Shown here piece by piece: positions 23,716 through 44,372 of a stretch of DNA of 64,000 nucleotides; position 1 is the stretch's first letter; the number at the start of each line of letters is the position of its first letter. The stretch covers positions 1 to 64,000 of the forward strand of contig CAMOIE010000008.1 of NCBI GenBank assembly GCA_946615905.1, in the 5' to 3' direction. Both the position numbers and the translations under genes were made by a program. The notes under the pieces are model-generated. The model was not told the DNA's origin, ran no database searches, and worked only from the letters and a program-made list of their open reading frames with translations. The DNA comes from an uncultured Treponema sp. (GTDB taxonomy: Bacteria > Spirochaetota > Spirochaetia > Treponematales > Treponemataceae).

Positions 23716-23737
23716 TTAAAAAAACGGGTGGGACAAT

Positions 23738-25885
23738 ATGACATTGAGAAAAAAACTTTCATTGGGAATCGTGATCCTTCTTTTTGCATTGCCTTTGATT
23801 GCCCAGGACAATTCTCCGGCGGTTTTGAAATTCTACGATTCCGGCGTTCAAAAGCAGATTGCCGAGGACTTTTACGGAGCCGCCGAAGATTTCAACGAGG
23901 CCGTGCAGAGAAATCCAGCTTTTTCTGACGCATGGTTCCATCTTGCCCAGGTGACTTATGAGGTCGGAGACTACAGCCTCGTCTTGAATTATCTGGAAAA
24001 AGCCGAGAAATTCGCCAAGGATAAAACAGAAATCCTCAATTTGCGCGGAATGACATTGATTTCCCTTGACCGCCTTGAGGAAGCAAGAAAGATTTTCACC
24101 GATGTCTTGAAATCCTCCCCAAACAATGTTGACGCCCGCTTCGGACTGGCAGAGCTTGACCTTTTTGAGGGCCGCTATGACGGGGCTGAAAGAATGTACC
24201 TTGACGCCTTGAAGCGGGAGACCGACTCCAGGAAGGCCCTCCTTTCACTTGCTGTCCTGTCCGCAGAGACCGGAAAAAATGATACCGCCAGAAAATATCT
24301 TGACCAGGCCTTGCGCCGTCATTCCGGTGAGAGCGAGGTCCACTACCTTGCGGCCTATCTTGAGGCCCGCGCGGGGAATTTCTCCGAGGCGGAGAGAAGG
24401 GCAAGGGCTGCGGTTCAGCTGAACGGAAATTTCACCGGTGCCTATGTCCTTTTGGCCTCTGTATTATATTCTCAAAAGCGCTGGGGGGAAGTCATTGATA
24501 TCTGCGACTATTTGATTGCCAAGGATAGAAAATTGACTTCCGCCTGGTATTTGAAGGGACTTTCTAATTACAGGCTCGGCGACTCTGAAAAGGCGATTTC
24601 AATTTGGTCTACGGCCCTCTCAATCGTCCCGCAGGATGAGATTATGCGCGCCATTTTGGAGCTTGTCGTGAACCGCACTCTTCCGATTGAGGACAATCGC
24701 CGCTCCTCTTGGTCTGACTACCATATTGCCCGCGCACGCGAGTATGCCAAAGTTTTTGAGGGGGAGGCCGCCCGCTACGAGTACCAGCAGGCCCTCTCAA
24801 TCGACCCGAATAATATTTCCGCCCGCTATGAGTTTGCCGAGGTCCTTAGAAAAATCGGTTTGAACGAGCTTTATCTTGAACAGCTGAGATTTATACAGAG
24901 CCAGCAGGCTGAGCTTGATGCGGCCGCAGAGGAAAAGTCCGGCAAAAAGCTGGAGAAATCCGCGAGCCAAAAATCAACGGAAAGAAAAATCTCTGACACT
25001 GTTGAGTCATATTCCTCTTTGATGAAGTACGAGCTTCCCGCAAAGTGGAACGTACAGCCCTTCTATTTGGACAAGAACCGTTGGAATGTCGGAATTTTCT
25101 ATAAAAAATCTCCCGCCCAGCTTGTCCATTGTGACGGTGAGGAAATCGCAGCTGCCATGGCCGCGGACATCTTCCGTGGAATCGCCACGACGACTGTCGC
25201 TGTCTCAAATCAGGAGGTTTCCGGCTACGGAGAGGCTTTCAGCAGGGCGAGAAAAAGCAAGCTTGATTATTTTGTCCTTCTTTCTTTTGACGAATCTGAG
25301 CGTGAGGTCTCGCTCGATGCCGTGATTTACAACGGGCGCAACGGAACTGAGACAAAGCGTTTCTCTGTCTTCCGCACGGGTAACGGACGATTTACATCTG
25401 TCTTGCGCTCATTCCGCCGCTCAGTCCTTGAGATGCTTCCAATCCGGGGAAAAATTATCGCCCGCAACGGAAACGAGATTTTGATTGACCTTGGAAAATC
25501 CGAGGGGCTTGTCAAAAACGCCATGATGGACGTTGTGAAGGCTGGAGCCGTTAAAACTGCTGACACTGGAACTGGCGTAGTATTCCGCCCTCAGGACTCC
25601 CTTGGAAATCTTGACCTTTCTTCTGTCGGTGAGGAAATCTCACAGGGAACGCTGACCCAAAAGGGCTTCTACGACCGCGTGAACATCGGGGACGAGGTTC
25701 TTGTAAAGTCAATGCCCAAATATGATTCTGAGGGCAACTTGATTGCGGATGCCAATCCTGCGGCTGACGAGAACGGCAACAAGATTGAGTCTAAGACACA
25801 GGAGCAGAAAAAGAGGATTACGGCCGAGGACTTGGGGCTTGTGAAGACTCCGCCCTTTATTGACTTGATCCGCTCCATTCATTGA
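23738..25885 (+). CDS. TPR-repeat periplasmic/envelope protein
   Basis: A 715-residue protein with a signal peptide (LSLGIVILLFALPLIAQ). About nine tetratricopeptide-like repeats span residues 30-395, for example AWFHLAQVTYEVGDYSLVLNYLEKAEKFA and the following units. The C-terminal ~300 residues form a separate domain with EIAAAMAADIFRGIATTTVAVS and a KIIARNGNEILIDLGKSEGL segment, similar to domains in other treponemal TPR proteins. TPRs mediate protein-protein contacts; the partners are unknown. The gene lies downstream of a repeat, and its start is preceded by GGGTGGGA, a fair ribosome-binding site. Confidence 0.75.
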   Translation: MTLRKKLSLGIVILLFALPLIAQDNSPAVLKFYDSGVQKQIAEDFYGAAEDFNEAVQRNPAFSDAWFHLAQVTYEVGDYSLVLNYLEKAEKFAKDKTEILNLRGMTLISLDRLEEARKIFTDVLKSSPNNVDARFGLAELDLFEGRYDGAERMYLDALKRETDSRKALLSLAVLSAETGKNDTARKYLDQALRRHSGESEVHYLAAYLEARAGNFSEAERRARAAVQLNGNFTGAYVLLASVLYSQKRWGEVIDICDYLIAKDRKLTSAWYLKGLSNYRLGDSEKAISIWSTALSIVPQDEIMRAILELVVNRTLPIEDNRRSSWSDYHIARAREYAKVFEGEAARYEYQQALSIDPNNISARYEFAEVLRKIGLNELYLEQLRFIQSQQAELDAAAEEKSGKKLEKSASQKSTERKISDTVESYSSLMKYELPAKWNVQPFYLDKNRWNVGIFYKKSPAQLVHCDGEEIAAAMAADIFRGIATTTVAVSNQEVSGYGEAFSRARKSKLDYFVLLSFDESEREVSLDAVIYNGRNGTETKRFSVFRTGNGRFTSVLRSFRRSVLEMLPIRGKIIARNGNEILIDLGKSEGLVKNAMMDVVKAGAVKTADTGTGVVFRPQDSLGNLDLSSVGEEISQGTLTQKGFYDRVNIGDEVLVKSMPKYDSEGNLIADANPAADENGNKIESKTQEQKKRITAEDLGLVKTPPFIDLIRSIH

Positions 25886-40547: not shown

Positions 40548-43082
40548 TTAGTCCATCAAATAGTTGAAGTCAGGTGCGTTGCCGAATTCATCGACTTGGA
40601 GGACTGAATCCGCCGTGTCAGCCGTTGAAGTTCCTGAAAGGTCGAAAGTCAGCGGCTTGTCGTCTTTTATGATTAAATCCGAGGCGAAACCGGTCTTGTA
40701 CAATTCGCGCTCAAGCCTGTAAAGTCCGATTGACCTTCCGCTCGTATTCGTGTGAACCGTGCAAAGTGCTGTCGGCTGAGTTCCTTCCAAATACCATGCC
40801 GTGATTTTGTGATCCTCACATTCGGGGGTCAGGATTCCGCCTGAGACAGAGCAGACTGTAGCCTGAACCAGACCTGTTGCCGGACGGGTGAAATCCTTGT
40901 ATGGAAGTCCCTCGTGGATTTTTCCCATGTATGCTGACCAGGCTTTTCCCGCCAAAGTAGAGCCTGTGAGCTGGAGTCCGAGAGACTGGCCTGGTTTGTC
41001 AAAGCCGAACCAGAAGGCCGCCGTGTAGTATGGCGTGAAGCCGACTGTCCAGGCATCAGCCCAGTTTTGCGTCGTTCCTGTTTTTCCAGCCGCAGGAATC
41101 GTGTATTTGCTGCCGTCAGGCCTTTTATAGGTGAATTTGCGTCCGTTGTTTGAAGGCCCTGCCAGCGTTCCAGACTTTACAGTGTTCTGCAAAAGCTGGC
41201 TCATCACGTATGCCGTCTGAGGGCTTATCACCTGGGCGGAAGAGCCTTTTGCGAGCAAGGCCTGCCGTGTGTCTTTTTCCGGGTTCAAGAATACGTTGCC
41301 GTTGCGGTCTTCGACCGAGCGGATTGCAATCGGTGTGACTTCCTTTCCTCCTCCGGCAAAAATAGAGTAGGCGCGGGCCATCTCAATCGGCCGGACTGAG
41401 CATACGCCAAGTCCAATCGGGTAGCCGGGGACAAAGGCGCGGGAAGGCAGCTCTTCCTCTGAGATTCCAAGGAGGGCCACTGCACGGTCAATCGCCGCGT
41501 CAAAGCCGATCGCATCCAAAACTTTCAGGGACGGAACGTTCATCGAGTGGGCAAGGGCATACCAAAGCTGCACGTCTCCTGCCCATTCTCCACGGAAGTT
41601 CAGCGGAATGTAGGGCTTTCCGTCCGCAGTGTGGAAGACAACCGGGGTGTCGGAAATCGTCGTTGTCGGTGTGAACTGCCTTGAGTCGATTGCGGCTGAA
41701 TAGTAAAGGGGCTTGAAAGATGAACCCGGCTGGACTCTGGCCTGTACCGCGCGGATAAACTGGTTTTCCGAGTCGAATTTGGAGCCGCCCACGAGGGATG
41801 TGATGTAGCCTGTCTCGTTTTCAAGGGCGACCATGGTTCCCTCAACGGTGGTCTTTTCAGCCTCCTGCTTTGAGAGCACGTTAGCCCGGTTTACGATTCC
41901 AGTCTTGAGGGAGTCGATTCCGAATACGAGAGACATAACGTCAACCACAGGGTTCAGCTTGTCGGTGTAAGTGTCCTTTGAAATCGCCTCGTTTCTCTGC
42001 TCGGTGACTTTGATTCCGCCAAGGTTGAAGGTGAGGGCCAGCATTTCTGCAAGCGGAGTGTAGATTCTGAACGCCTGATTCATTCTGGAGGAGGTTGACC
42101 GCTGGTAGACCCTGTTCGCGTAGTCAATCCACTCGTTCATAGTCTCCTGGGCGACCTTCTGGTACTTTAAGTTCAATGTCGTGTTTACAGTGAATCCAGC
42201 CGTGTAGATGTCCTGGCTTCCGTAAATCAAAGTGCCAAGTTCCCGCCTTACGTACTCGGAGAACCAGGGGGCATTGTCGTCATGGCTGAACACCGCAGCG
42301 GAATTCGTCCTGGTCATGTCAAAGTTTGCCCAGTAGTTGTCAAATGACTCGTCGGCTTCTTCCTGCGTGATGTATTCCGAGTCGACCATAGCCGCAAGAA
42401 CCGCCTTCTGCCTGTCCATAGCCCGGTTCGGATGCTCAAATGGATTGTAGTAGGCCGGATTTGAGAGCTGGATTACGAGAATCGCAGCCTCCGCCGGGGT
42501 GATTTCAGTGGCATCGTGGCCGAAGTAGTATTTAGAGGCCGCGTTTACACCGTAAGTTCCGCCGCCAAAATAGATTTTATTGATGTAAAACTCAAGAATC
42601 TCGTCCTTTGAGTAACGCCTTTCCATCTGGATGGCCCACCAGAGTTCCTTGAGCTTTCTTTTGATAGACATTTCAGTTCTGTCGCAGTACAAAGTTCCCG
42701 CAATCTGCTGGCTCAGCGTGGAGCCGCCTCCCAGATTTAGGCCGACAAGTTTTCCTGCGAAGGCGCGGAGTACAGCTTTTGTCGAGAATCCGTGGTGGTC
42801 GTAGAAAACCCTGTCCTCGCGGCTGATAAGGGCATCTAGCATGTGTTGGGGAAGTTTTTTTATGGAAATGATTTCGCGTTTTTCTTCGGAAGCCAGCTCT
42901 GTGATCAGCTCCCCGTTGATGTCCAAAAGTTTTGTGGGCAGGGCAGTGGTGAATTCCGTGAACTGCTCGTTGTCCCTGATGTATTTTGTGGCGGAAAGAC
43001 CGGCACCTAAAAGGCCCCCAAAAATTCCTGCAAAAAGAAAAAGAGCCGCCACAAGTGCGTAAGTCGATTTTTTAACGGTCAT
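40548..43082 (-). CDS. mrcA: Bifunctional penicillin-binding protein 1A
   Basis: An 844-residue protein with one N-terminal membrane anchor (ALVAALFLFAGIFGGLLGAGL). The GT51 glycosyltransferase has SREDRVFYDHHGF with the catalytic Glu, and GGSTLSQQIAGTLY. The transpeptidase has SSFKP (SxxK), HSMN (SxN) and KTGTTQ (KTG). Both activities should be intact. It polymerises and cross-links peptidoglycan. The start has no Shine-Dalgarno sequence but a good promoter nine bases upstream. Genes for M23 hydrolases and the lysine/DAP pathway in the same window concern the same polymer. Confidence 0.94.
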   Translation of the reverse strand: MTVKKSTYALVAALFLFAGIFGGLLGAGLSATKYIRDNEQFTEFTTALPTKLLDINGELITELASEEKREIISIKKLPQHMLDALISREDRVFYDHHGFSTKAVLRAFAGKLVGLNLGGGSTLSQQIAGTLYCDRTEMSIKRKLKELWWAIQMERRYSKDEILEFYINKIYFGGGTYGVNAASKYYFGHDATEITPAEAAILVIQLSNPAYYNPFEHPNRAMDRQKAVLAAMVDSEYITQEEADESFDNYWANFDMTRTNSAAVFSHDDNAPWFSEYVRRELGTLIYGSQDIYTAGFTVNTTLNLKYQKVAQETMNEWIDYANRVYQRSTSSRMNQAFRIYTPLAEMLALTFNLGGIKVTEQRNEAISKDTYTDKLNPVVDVMSLVFGIDSLKTGIVNRANVLSKQEAEKTTVEGTMVALENETGYITSLVGGSKFDSENQFIRAVQARVQPGSSFKPLYYSAAIDSRQFTPTTTISDTPVVFHTADGKPYIPLNFRGEWAGDVQLWYALAHSMNVPSLKVLDAIGFDAAIDRAVALLGISEEELPSRAFVPGYPIGLGVCSVRPIEMARAYSIFAGGGKEVTPIAIRSVEDRNGNVFLNPEKDTRQALLAKGSSAQVISPQTAYVMSQLLQNTVKSGTLAGPSNNGRKFTYKRPDGSKYTIPAAGKTGTTQNWADAWTVGFTPYYTAAFWFGFDKPGQSLGLQLTGSTLAGKAWSAYMGKIHEGLPYKDFTRPATGLVQATVCSVSGGILTPECEDHKITAWYLEGTQPTALCTVHTNTSGRSIGLYRLERELYKTGFASDLIIKDDKPLTFDLSGTSTADTADSVLQVDEFGNAPDFNYLMD

Positions 43083-43091
43083 ATTTTAAAG

Positions 43092-43120
43092 ATTCTAATG
43101 ATTTCAGTCATTTTTTTCAA
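43092..43120 (-). promoter_or_regulatory. PBP1a promoter, predicted near-leaderless
   Basis: On the minus strand TTGAAA (43115-43120), a 17-bp spacer and TAGAAT (43092-43097) are followed nine bases later by the ATG (43082). Confidence 0.6.
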
Positions 43121-43235
43121 TCAGTAGGGCGCCTGCCTCCGACACCGGGCTTTGCGGGGTTCGGTAACCCTCATCGTCCTCGGTTTCGTAAGCTCCACCT
43201 GCGGTCGACTTACGCCCCTCCAATCCCTGGCGCAA
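43121..43235 (-). repeat. GC-rich hairpin repeat joining both families
   Basis: On the minus strand it begins TTGCGCCAGGGATTGGAGGGG, as in the 39.0 kb copy, then hairpin GTAAG...CTTAC. Further on it carries ATGAGGGTTACCGAA (43160-43174), an exact 15-mer shared with the 49.4 kb copy, and ends in GGCGCCCTACTGA. It thus links the GGGATTGGAGGGG and GGGCGCATGGGCAT groups. It lies directly upstream of the PBP1a promoter. Confidence 0.55.
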
Positions 43236-43316
43236 AAAAAAGAGCGGCTTGCGCCGCTCTATGCCCATCAGGCAGTCGGGCATCAATGGGTGGGAGGGGA
43301 TAATTGATTGCCCGAC
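43234..43316 (-). ncRNA. Putative small RNA with C-rich loop and intrinsic terminator
   Basis: On the minus strand GATAAT (43323-43328) is followed six bases later by a hairpin. Arms GTCGGGCAATCAA (43316-43304) and TTGATGCCCGAC (43286-43275) pair over 12 bp with one bulge, and the 17-nt loop is UUAUCCCCUCCCACCCA. A linker follows, then the terminator stem AGAGCGGC-GCAA-GCCGCTCT and eight T. The predicted RNA is about 83 nt. No ORF or ribosome-binding site is present. The C-rich loop resembles those with which small RNAs pair to Shine-Dalgarno regions. The -35 is weak. Alternatively it is an attenuator or riboswitch for the PBP1a gene, or the 3' UTR of the gene upstream. Confidence 0.45.
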
Positions 43317-43400
43317 ATTTATATTATCGCCTGAATGTGTGGAATCTTTAGGGATTTTGGAAAAAAATTAAGAATTTGTTTGTAACCTATTGGAGGACGC

Positions 43401-44372
43401 TTATTCTTCGCTCACAGATGCGTCAACATTCAGCGTGACCGTGTATGAGCGGCCGTTTTGCGCGTTCAGATTTTTTACGACCTCATAGTCACCGACAGTG
43501 AATTTTACAGAATGCTCTCCGGGAGTCGTCGTGAATACCTTTTTGCTGACCTCATTGCCGTCAAAGAAAATCTTCGCGTTTTGCGGAGCAGATATTTTCA
43601 CCAGTGGCTCTATTCCCCTCAGCGCGACCTCAAGTTTTGTAGTCTTCGCCTTGTCGATTCTGAAAGACCGGACTTCATTCCTGTAGACTTCGCTCTGGAC
43701 TGAAAGAGAGTGTTCCCCGCTGGCCAAAAGAATTCCGTCCTTTTCTATTGCAACAGGCTTGTCATCGATGAAAAGAGAATAGGCTCCCTTTTTGCCTGTC
43801 GGGTCAGAAATCGAAATGCTCAAGCGGCCTTCGTCCGCAAGGACTGCCTTTGCCGTAATCTGGAATTTTGCCTTGTCAAATGATTCGGGAACGCCCTTCA
43901 TGGCAAGCTGCATCCTGAAAAACACGGATTCGCCGGCTTTTGCCTGAGTTTCCTTCAGCCTTACGGAATATGGCGAATTTTTAATCGTGAATTTTTTCGA
44001 GAGGGGAATGTAAATCGTCGTTGAAAGACGGGCGGGGAAGGTCTTTACTTCCGACCGGTTCCCCGAATAGTCGATGTTCTTTGGTGTCGGCTTTGGTGAT
44101 ATTCCCTCGTAAAGCGAGTAGGCTACAGAGTCCGGCCATTCGGCAATCTGCGTTGGAATCTTGACGGTCAGCTCGATTCCGCTTATGTAAGTCATGTCGT
44201 CAGGAAGTGTAATCGCGATGGCATCATTCATGCCTGCGGAAACGTCAGAGCTTTCGCTTGCTGACAGCCTCAAAGGAATCAACTGGTGCACACGAAATGA
44301 CTCTGCACTTAGCCCTTGGCAAATCGAGAGGAGAATAAAAAATCCTGCGATTTTAGAATATATAAACTTCAT
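43401..44372 (-). CDS. Secreted protein with C-terminal PEGA-like domain
   Basis: A 323-residue protein with a signal peptide (FFILLSICQGLSA). The body is beta-rich. The last ~70 residues (APQNAKIFFDGNEVSKKVFTTTPGEHSVKFTVGDYEVVKNL) look like a PEGA domain, common in bacterial envelope proteins. An earlier copy-like stretch appears near ILLASGEHSLSVQSEVYRNEVRSF. The family is not otherwise recognised. A TATAAT box lies 18 bases before the ATG, with GAGAG between. Function unknown; probably periplasmic or surface-associated. Confidence 0.7.
   Translation of the reverse strand: MKFIYSKIAGFFILLSICQGLSAESFRVHQLIPLRLSASESSDVSAGMNDAIAITLPDDMTYISGIELTVKIPTQIAEWPDSVAYSLYEGISPKPTPKNIDYSGNRSEVKTFPARLSTTIYIPLSKKFTIKNSPYSVRLKETQAKAGESVFFRMQLAMKGVPESFDKAKFQITAKAVLADEGRLSISISDPTGKKGAYSLFIDDKPVAIEKDGILLASGEHSLSVQSEVYRNEVRSFRIDKAKTTKLEVALRGIEPLVKISAPQNAKIFFDGNEVSKKVFTTTPGEHSVKFTVGDYEVVKNLNAQNGRSYTVTLNVDASVSEE

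Follow-up and report, generated by a model that had tools for sequence, protein, structure and literature searches.

The window, that is, the whole stretch of 64,000 nucleotides of Treponema DNA analysed here, contains on its minus strand a gene for a small RNA of about 83 nt (43234..43316, the start being predicted). It lies between a PEGA-domain protein gene upstream (43401..44372, minus; Pfam PEGA) and the gene for PBP1a downstream (40548..43082, minus; Pfam Transgly and Transpeptidase), both of them outside the RNA gene. The PEGA gene is the neighbour in many genomes, and the arrangement PEGA gene–RNA–PBP1a is an old one. On the 5′ side of the RNA, the minus strand carries the promoter layout TAAAGATT-N11-GGCGATAA, with the -35 element at 43343..43350 and the -10 element at 43324..43331, followed by a short AT-rich spacer and by the 42-nt hairpin 1 with its covarying stem (43275..43316, minus). 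RNAfold folds hairpin 1 into 8 bp, a one-base bulge and 5 bp more, with a 15-nt loop that contains the C-rich sequence CCCCUCCCACCC (43288..43299, minus), which we propose as the pairing region. Next come the mini-hairpin UGCCUGAUGGGCA (43262..43274, minus) and the intrinsic terminator (43234..43260, minus), composed of a stem at 43260-43241 and eight T at 43241-43234. The covariance model R1 matches at 43262-43329. In the homologues, the UGCC/GGCA stem of the mini-hairpin is kept while its loop varies, and an equivalent terminator stem and T run are present but differ in sequence.

Much of this had been described in a sequence-only reading, which placed GATAAT (43328-43323, minus) six bases ahead of a hairpin. 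Its span of about 83 nt is exactly that from 43316 to 43234, and its terminator with eight T is in place at 43260-43234. The hairpin exists as well, but the 12-bp stem and 17-nt loop assigned to it give way to the fold described above. Two parts had been missed, the -35 TAAAG located 16–17 nt upstream of CGATAA and the mini-hairpin; the rest of the description holds.

The fold of the 101-nt stretch has a z-score of -5.15, and none of 200 shuffles is equally stable. By blastn, the element occurs in nearly all genomes of the same genus. Scanning GTDB genomes for the exact pattern gave at least 118 stretches; among the matches listed, all titles displayed named Treponema or, more broadly, a spirochaete, and they covered T. 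bryantii, T. porcinum, T. socranskii, T. ruminis and T. zioleckii. Since that scan required the loop, we built R1 and searched whole genomes, and it matched 260 of the 274 family genomes (125 of the 128 high-quality ones), nearly always in a single copy. A broader model, R2, detects the RNA across the class Spirochaetia and matches 150 of 393 genomes of the phylum, the matches in other classes being weaker (E ~1e-8 to 0.01); some of these were read. The R2-matched genomes presumably include T. primitia, T. azotonutricia, T. caldarium and T. pallidum, as well as what we take to be Spirochaeta africana, S. thermophila and Sediminispirochaeta smaragdinae. Locus L367 is T. denticola, as published primers match it, and the strain is presumably ATCC 35405.

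Compensatory changes are seen at nine of the nine stem pairs within the family, with 97% of cells paired, and at 13 of the 15 pairs of the class-wide structure; the conserved secondary structure passed the covariation test against shuffled and slid controls. While the stem covaries, the loop core (U)CCCCUCCCA is nearly fixed throughout the class. The loop reads CCCCUCCCACCCA in the Treponemataceae and CCCCUCCCAAAUCA or CCCCUCCCAGUUU in other families, and thirteen of its bases, including CCCCUCCCACCC, are invariant in the 33 aligned family genomes. The fold z-score, the homologues in nearly every family genome and the covariation at all nine stem pairs confirm that the RNA element is real, far beyond chance. 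Moreover, the sequence-only reading had named loop conservation in related treponemes as a check, and this invariance, with CCCCUCCCA kept class-wide, strongly supports its proposal that this is a separate small RNA whose C-rich loop is exposed. No Rfam 15 family reaches its gathering threshold for the RNA, and no description of it was found in the literature searched. Judged from these comparisons, it is a deeply conserved and unannotated RNA gene, new relative to Rfam 15. The best small RNA in a permissive Rfam scan, suhB/mmgR (RF00519), likewise consists of a hairpin and then a terminator; it was rejected because its 14.3 bits (E 4.3) fall short of the gathering score, 41.

Two other readings of the element were discarded. 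A peptide-coding function was rejected, as the ATG ahead of the stem is lost in the homologues. A pseudoknot, in which CCCAU of the loop would pair with AUGGG in the mini-hairpin, is feasible in the window's genome and is not general, because L009, L030 and L031 have different mini-hairpin loops with the main loop unchanged.

Does the RNA belong to PBP1a? The sequence-only reading had offered an attenuator ahead of PBP1a as its alternative, in which transcription from the RNA promoter would read through the terminator under some condition. PBP1a is indeed the next same-strand gene in most genomes, across several families. However, a separate sigma-70-like promoter for PBP1a lies beyond the terminator and ahead of the PBP1a start (TTGAAA-17-TAGAAT at 43120-43092), and its own promoters are also found in other genomes, often leaderless and sometimes overlapping the RNA terminator. 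In addition, the RNA persists where the next gene is not PBP1a but a convergent one, which in several genomes encodes a molybdopterin-dehydrogenase FAD-binding protein, an M29 peptidase or leucyl-tRNA synthetase; in one genome, a divergent GAPDH gene lies upstream. A leader would always sit directly upstream of a regulated gene without its own promoter, which is not what we found, and an attenuator has no need of a fixed C-rich loop. Control of PBP1a in cis is thus most improbable. The promoter of PBP1a and the convergent neighbours elsewhere indicate instead an autonomous gene, and the RNA has the make-up of a stand-alone small RNA gene: its own promoter and intrinsic terminator, independent of the neighbours.

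How is the RNA gene switched on? Its promoter has the form TAAAG-N16/17-CGATAA, and the conservation of TAAAG 16–17 nt upstream of CGATAA underlies its assignment to the sigma-28 (FliA) type. In 112 of 124 distinct homologues, the distance from AAG to CGA is exactly 16 or 17 nt, and AAG is seldom seen at any other spacing; CGATA of the -10 element is nearly invariant. In T. denticola, RACE has located the start of flaB2, which was attributed to sigma-28 (-10 CCGATAA, -35 TTAA; PMC9481697). Both flaB2 and the RNA read AAG-N16-CGATA in that species, and the start distance of flaB2 predicts the RNA start at about 43316. The gene therefore has the FliA-type promoter that marks the class of sigma-28-dependent flagellar small RNAs, and this layout suggests that FliA, the flagellar sigma factor, turns it on. 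The motif is not enriched genome-wide, as the strict form occurs 16 times in the window's genome (8 + 8) and 13 + 10 times in the controls; among its intergenic sites there are those before a flagellin gene, a gene matching Pfam FlgM (E 3e-9) and the RNA.

The distribution of the RNA fits a role tied to sigma-28, as it is missing from families without FliA. Among the sampled Spirochaetia outside the own order, it was found in 27 of 32 FliA-positive genomes versus 1 of 72 FliA-negative ones, the single match in the latter having an E-value of 0.009, near chance. The Fisher P of 8e-19 ignores relatedness, and the FliA-negative genomes fall into only two families, by our assignment one with small genomes like Borreliaceae and one Sphaerochaetaceae-like, so that the co-occurrence represents few independent events and is suggestive. 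Borrelia is motile and has no sigma-28 (PMC11607428); the RNA would therefore track the sigma factor and not motility. FliA alone is insufficient, since Brachyspira- and Leptospira-like genomes with FliA mostly give no match.

Next, we scored the loop by duplex energy against 254 sampled gene starts of the window's genome, a sample that deliberately took in two flagellar stretches, so that the ranks are partly enriched. The best duplex is formed with flhA (GAGGGUGGGA-AUG, -19.8 kcal/mol), followed by fliR (GGGUGGGAAA-AUG, -18.7 kcal/mol) and by a TPR protein in the window (GGGUGGGACAAU-AUG, -17.5 kcal/mol), and the top eleven starts also hold fliW, a flgV-like gene and one flagellin. Among the genomes examined, the fliR site is found only in the window's genome. 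The flhA ribosome-binding site GGGUGGG is complementary to CCCACCC of the loop. It stands close before the flhA start in 37 of the 40 Treponemataceae genomes with a clear flhA start, with GGGUGGA in one more, and the positions flanking it upstream are only 32–55% identical, in an alignment made on the motif itself, so that the motif columns are selected. None of 616 starts of other Treponema loci, many of them mutually orthologous, has GGGUGGG within 18 nt. Where a family's loop contains no CCCACCC, flhA is mostly preceded by an AGGAG-type or other site, G053 being the one exception. A T. pallidum-like genome carries CCCACCU in its loop and lacks the flhA site, and one further genome (G088) likewise lacks the site although it has the loop; in the T. 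denticola stretch examined, flhA was not found.

The duplex energy is only moderately specific: 14 of 1000 shuffled loops reach an average that is equally good, CCCACCC arises in 2.2% of shuffled loops, and the loops of other families pair about equally well with the Treponemataceae flhA sites. What carries the target claim is an exact and conserved complement of 7–8 bp, located in a flagellar-regulon gene. The sequence-only reading had proposed masking of generic GGAGG sites and target prediction against ribosome-binding sites. Masking retains its form; its generic target does not, as flhA and fliR head the 254 starts and the best conserved pairing joins GGGUGGG of flhA to the CCCACCC half of the loop. 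This pairing would leave the CCCCUC half without an assigned partner. Flagellin was rejected as the main target, because the site is strong in one paralogue (L155) and average in the other. In the window's own genome, the 12-nt loop complement with one mismatch has four matches, including the RNA gene itself, which equals the control number.

The most deeply conserved part of the loop, CCCCUCCC, is an anti-Shine-Dalgarno sequence, and the starts of flgV, fliW and some flagellins are GGAGGG or GGGAGG. The RNA might accordingly be a broad decoy, with a loop that mimics the 3′ end of 16S rRNA, competes against ribosomes for many purine-rich starts and favours no target. We regard this as unlikely: GGGAGGGG-ATG sites in 20 genomes revealed no recurrent gene, GGAGGG is rare among the sampled starts (2 of 254) while 109 of the 254 have no Shine-Dalgarno-like match, and the GGGUGGG before flhA in 37 of 40 genomes would be unaccounted for. 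The matching site before flhA would be equally unexplained if the loop were a binding site that sequesters a protein, such as a KH-domain or cold-shock protein. The thirteen invariant bases do exceed the need of one 7–8 nt pairing site, as a protein ligand would predict; even so, we consider a sponge of this kind very improbable. CsrA is an unlikely ligand, since the loop is complementary to the GGA-rich CsrA sites and does not resemble them.

We therefore favour as likely a stand-alone, sigma-28 (FliA)-dependent small RNA that would act in trans by masking the flhA start and feed back on flagellar export. This proposal keeps the discrete RNA and the masking of the sequence-only reading, which had missed the sigma-28 context, and parts with its generic target and its attenuator. 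The genomes compared show the RNA family and its structure, a promoter of the sigma-28 type, co-occurrence with FliA and the conserved flhA complement; the transcription, in-cell pairing, direction of effect and physiological role that we infer are as follows. FliA, free after hook completion, would make flagellin, FlgM and the small RNA, whose stem would present the C-rich loop single-stranded. In the Treponemataceae, CCCACCC of the loop would then pair with the GGGUGGG that immediately precedes the flhA start codon, keeping ribosomes from entering. The RNA probably turns down the synthesis of FlhA, a part of the flagellar protein-export machine, and the late flagellar stage would thereby lower the synthesis of the export gate. 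Secondary targets may be other purine-rich flagellar ribosome-binding sites, namely those of flgV, fliW, one flaB and, in the window's genome, fliR. It is an evenly balanced question whether this sigma-28-to-sRNA feedback is ancestral to the Spirochaetia, with a loop that co-evolved with the non-canonical flhA site of the Treponemataceae, a loss in the families without sigma-28, an alteration in the T. pallidum-like genome and possibly a wider presence in the phylum.

The regulatory position of the RNA would also be that of CJnc170 (FlmR) of Campylobacter jejuni, which is likewise made by FliA; that RNA differs in its length of 47 nt, its phylum and its predicted target, flgE instead of flhA, and the likeness is not one of sequence (PMC11187230). 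The sigma-28 small RNAs of E. coli are likewise under FliA control and act on flagella synthesis, but they are UTR-derived and Hfq-based and have no likeness in sequence to the spirochaete RNA (PMC10578931), which combines a promoter and a terminator of its own with a single loop that is fixed class-wide. The Cuckoo RNAs of alphaproteobacteria (e.g., NfeR1; PMC10746234) also expose anti-Shine-Dalgarno motifs in single-stranded loops. They belong to another phylum, are under other control and usually repeat these loops. Through Rfam, the spirochaete RNA has no sequence match to them.

To our knowledge, the post-transcriptional regulation of the internal flagella of spirochaetes is poorly known. 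If our proposal is true, the RNA would add to the flagellar regulon an unannotated regulator that spans the class and whose target is named and can be tested, and it would be a rare stand-alone sigma-28 small RNA conserved over many families. It would also give direct access to the factors that limit flagellar export and the number of flagella in spirochaetes, and it is present in many human- and animal-associated treponemes.

Several further observations concern the window and its homologues. The candidate pairing site GGGTGGGA (23726..23733, plus) precedes a 715-aa TPR protein (23738-25885, plus; ATG at 23738), the gene with the third-best energy, which may be a further target; against the FlcA collar model, the protein gave a match only below the cut-off. 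Treponemataceae flhA genes have the non-canonical site GGGUGGG(A/G) (e.g., L407-L421, L427-L461), and those of other families mostly an AGGAG-type site. Among the 254 sampled starts, based on crude start calls, 38 have GGAGG and 109 have no Shine-Dalgarno-like match, as would be expected if many genes of the window's genome are leaderless or have a weak SD. A sigma-70-like promoter lies immediately before the PBP1a start (43083-43120, minus), as in L003, L062, L079 and others, so the PBP1a mRNA looks leaderless; in L003, its -35 TTGACA is part of the small RNA terminator stem. A few genomes have two copies of the RNA (L057 and L075 of the same MAG, RUI560, and G287), either paralogues or MAG contamination. 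Finally, the region from the terminator to PBP1a (43100-43231) contains a GGATTGGAGGGGCG-type sequence resembling a dispersed repeat, and a similar GGAGGGGCG stretch precedes the flagellin gene flaB in L154.
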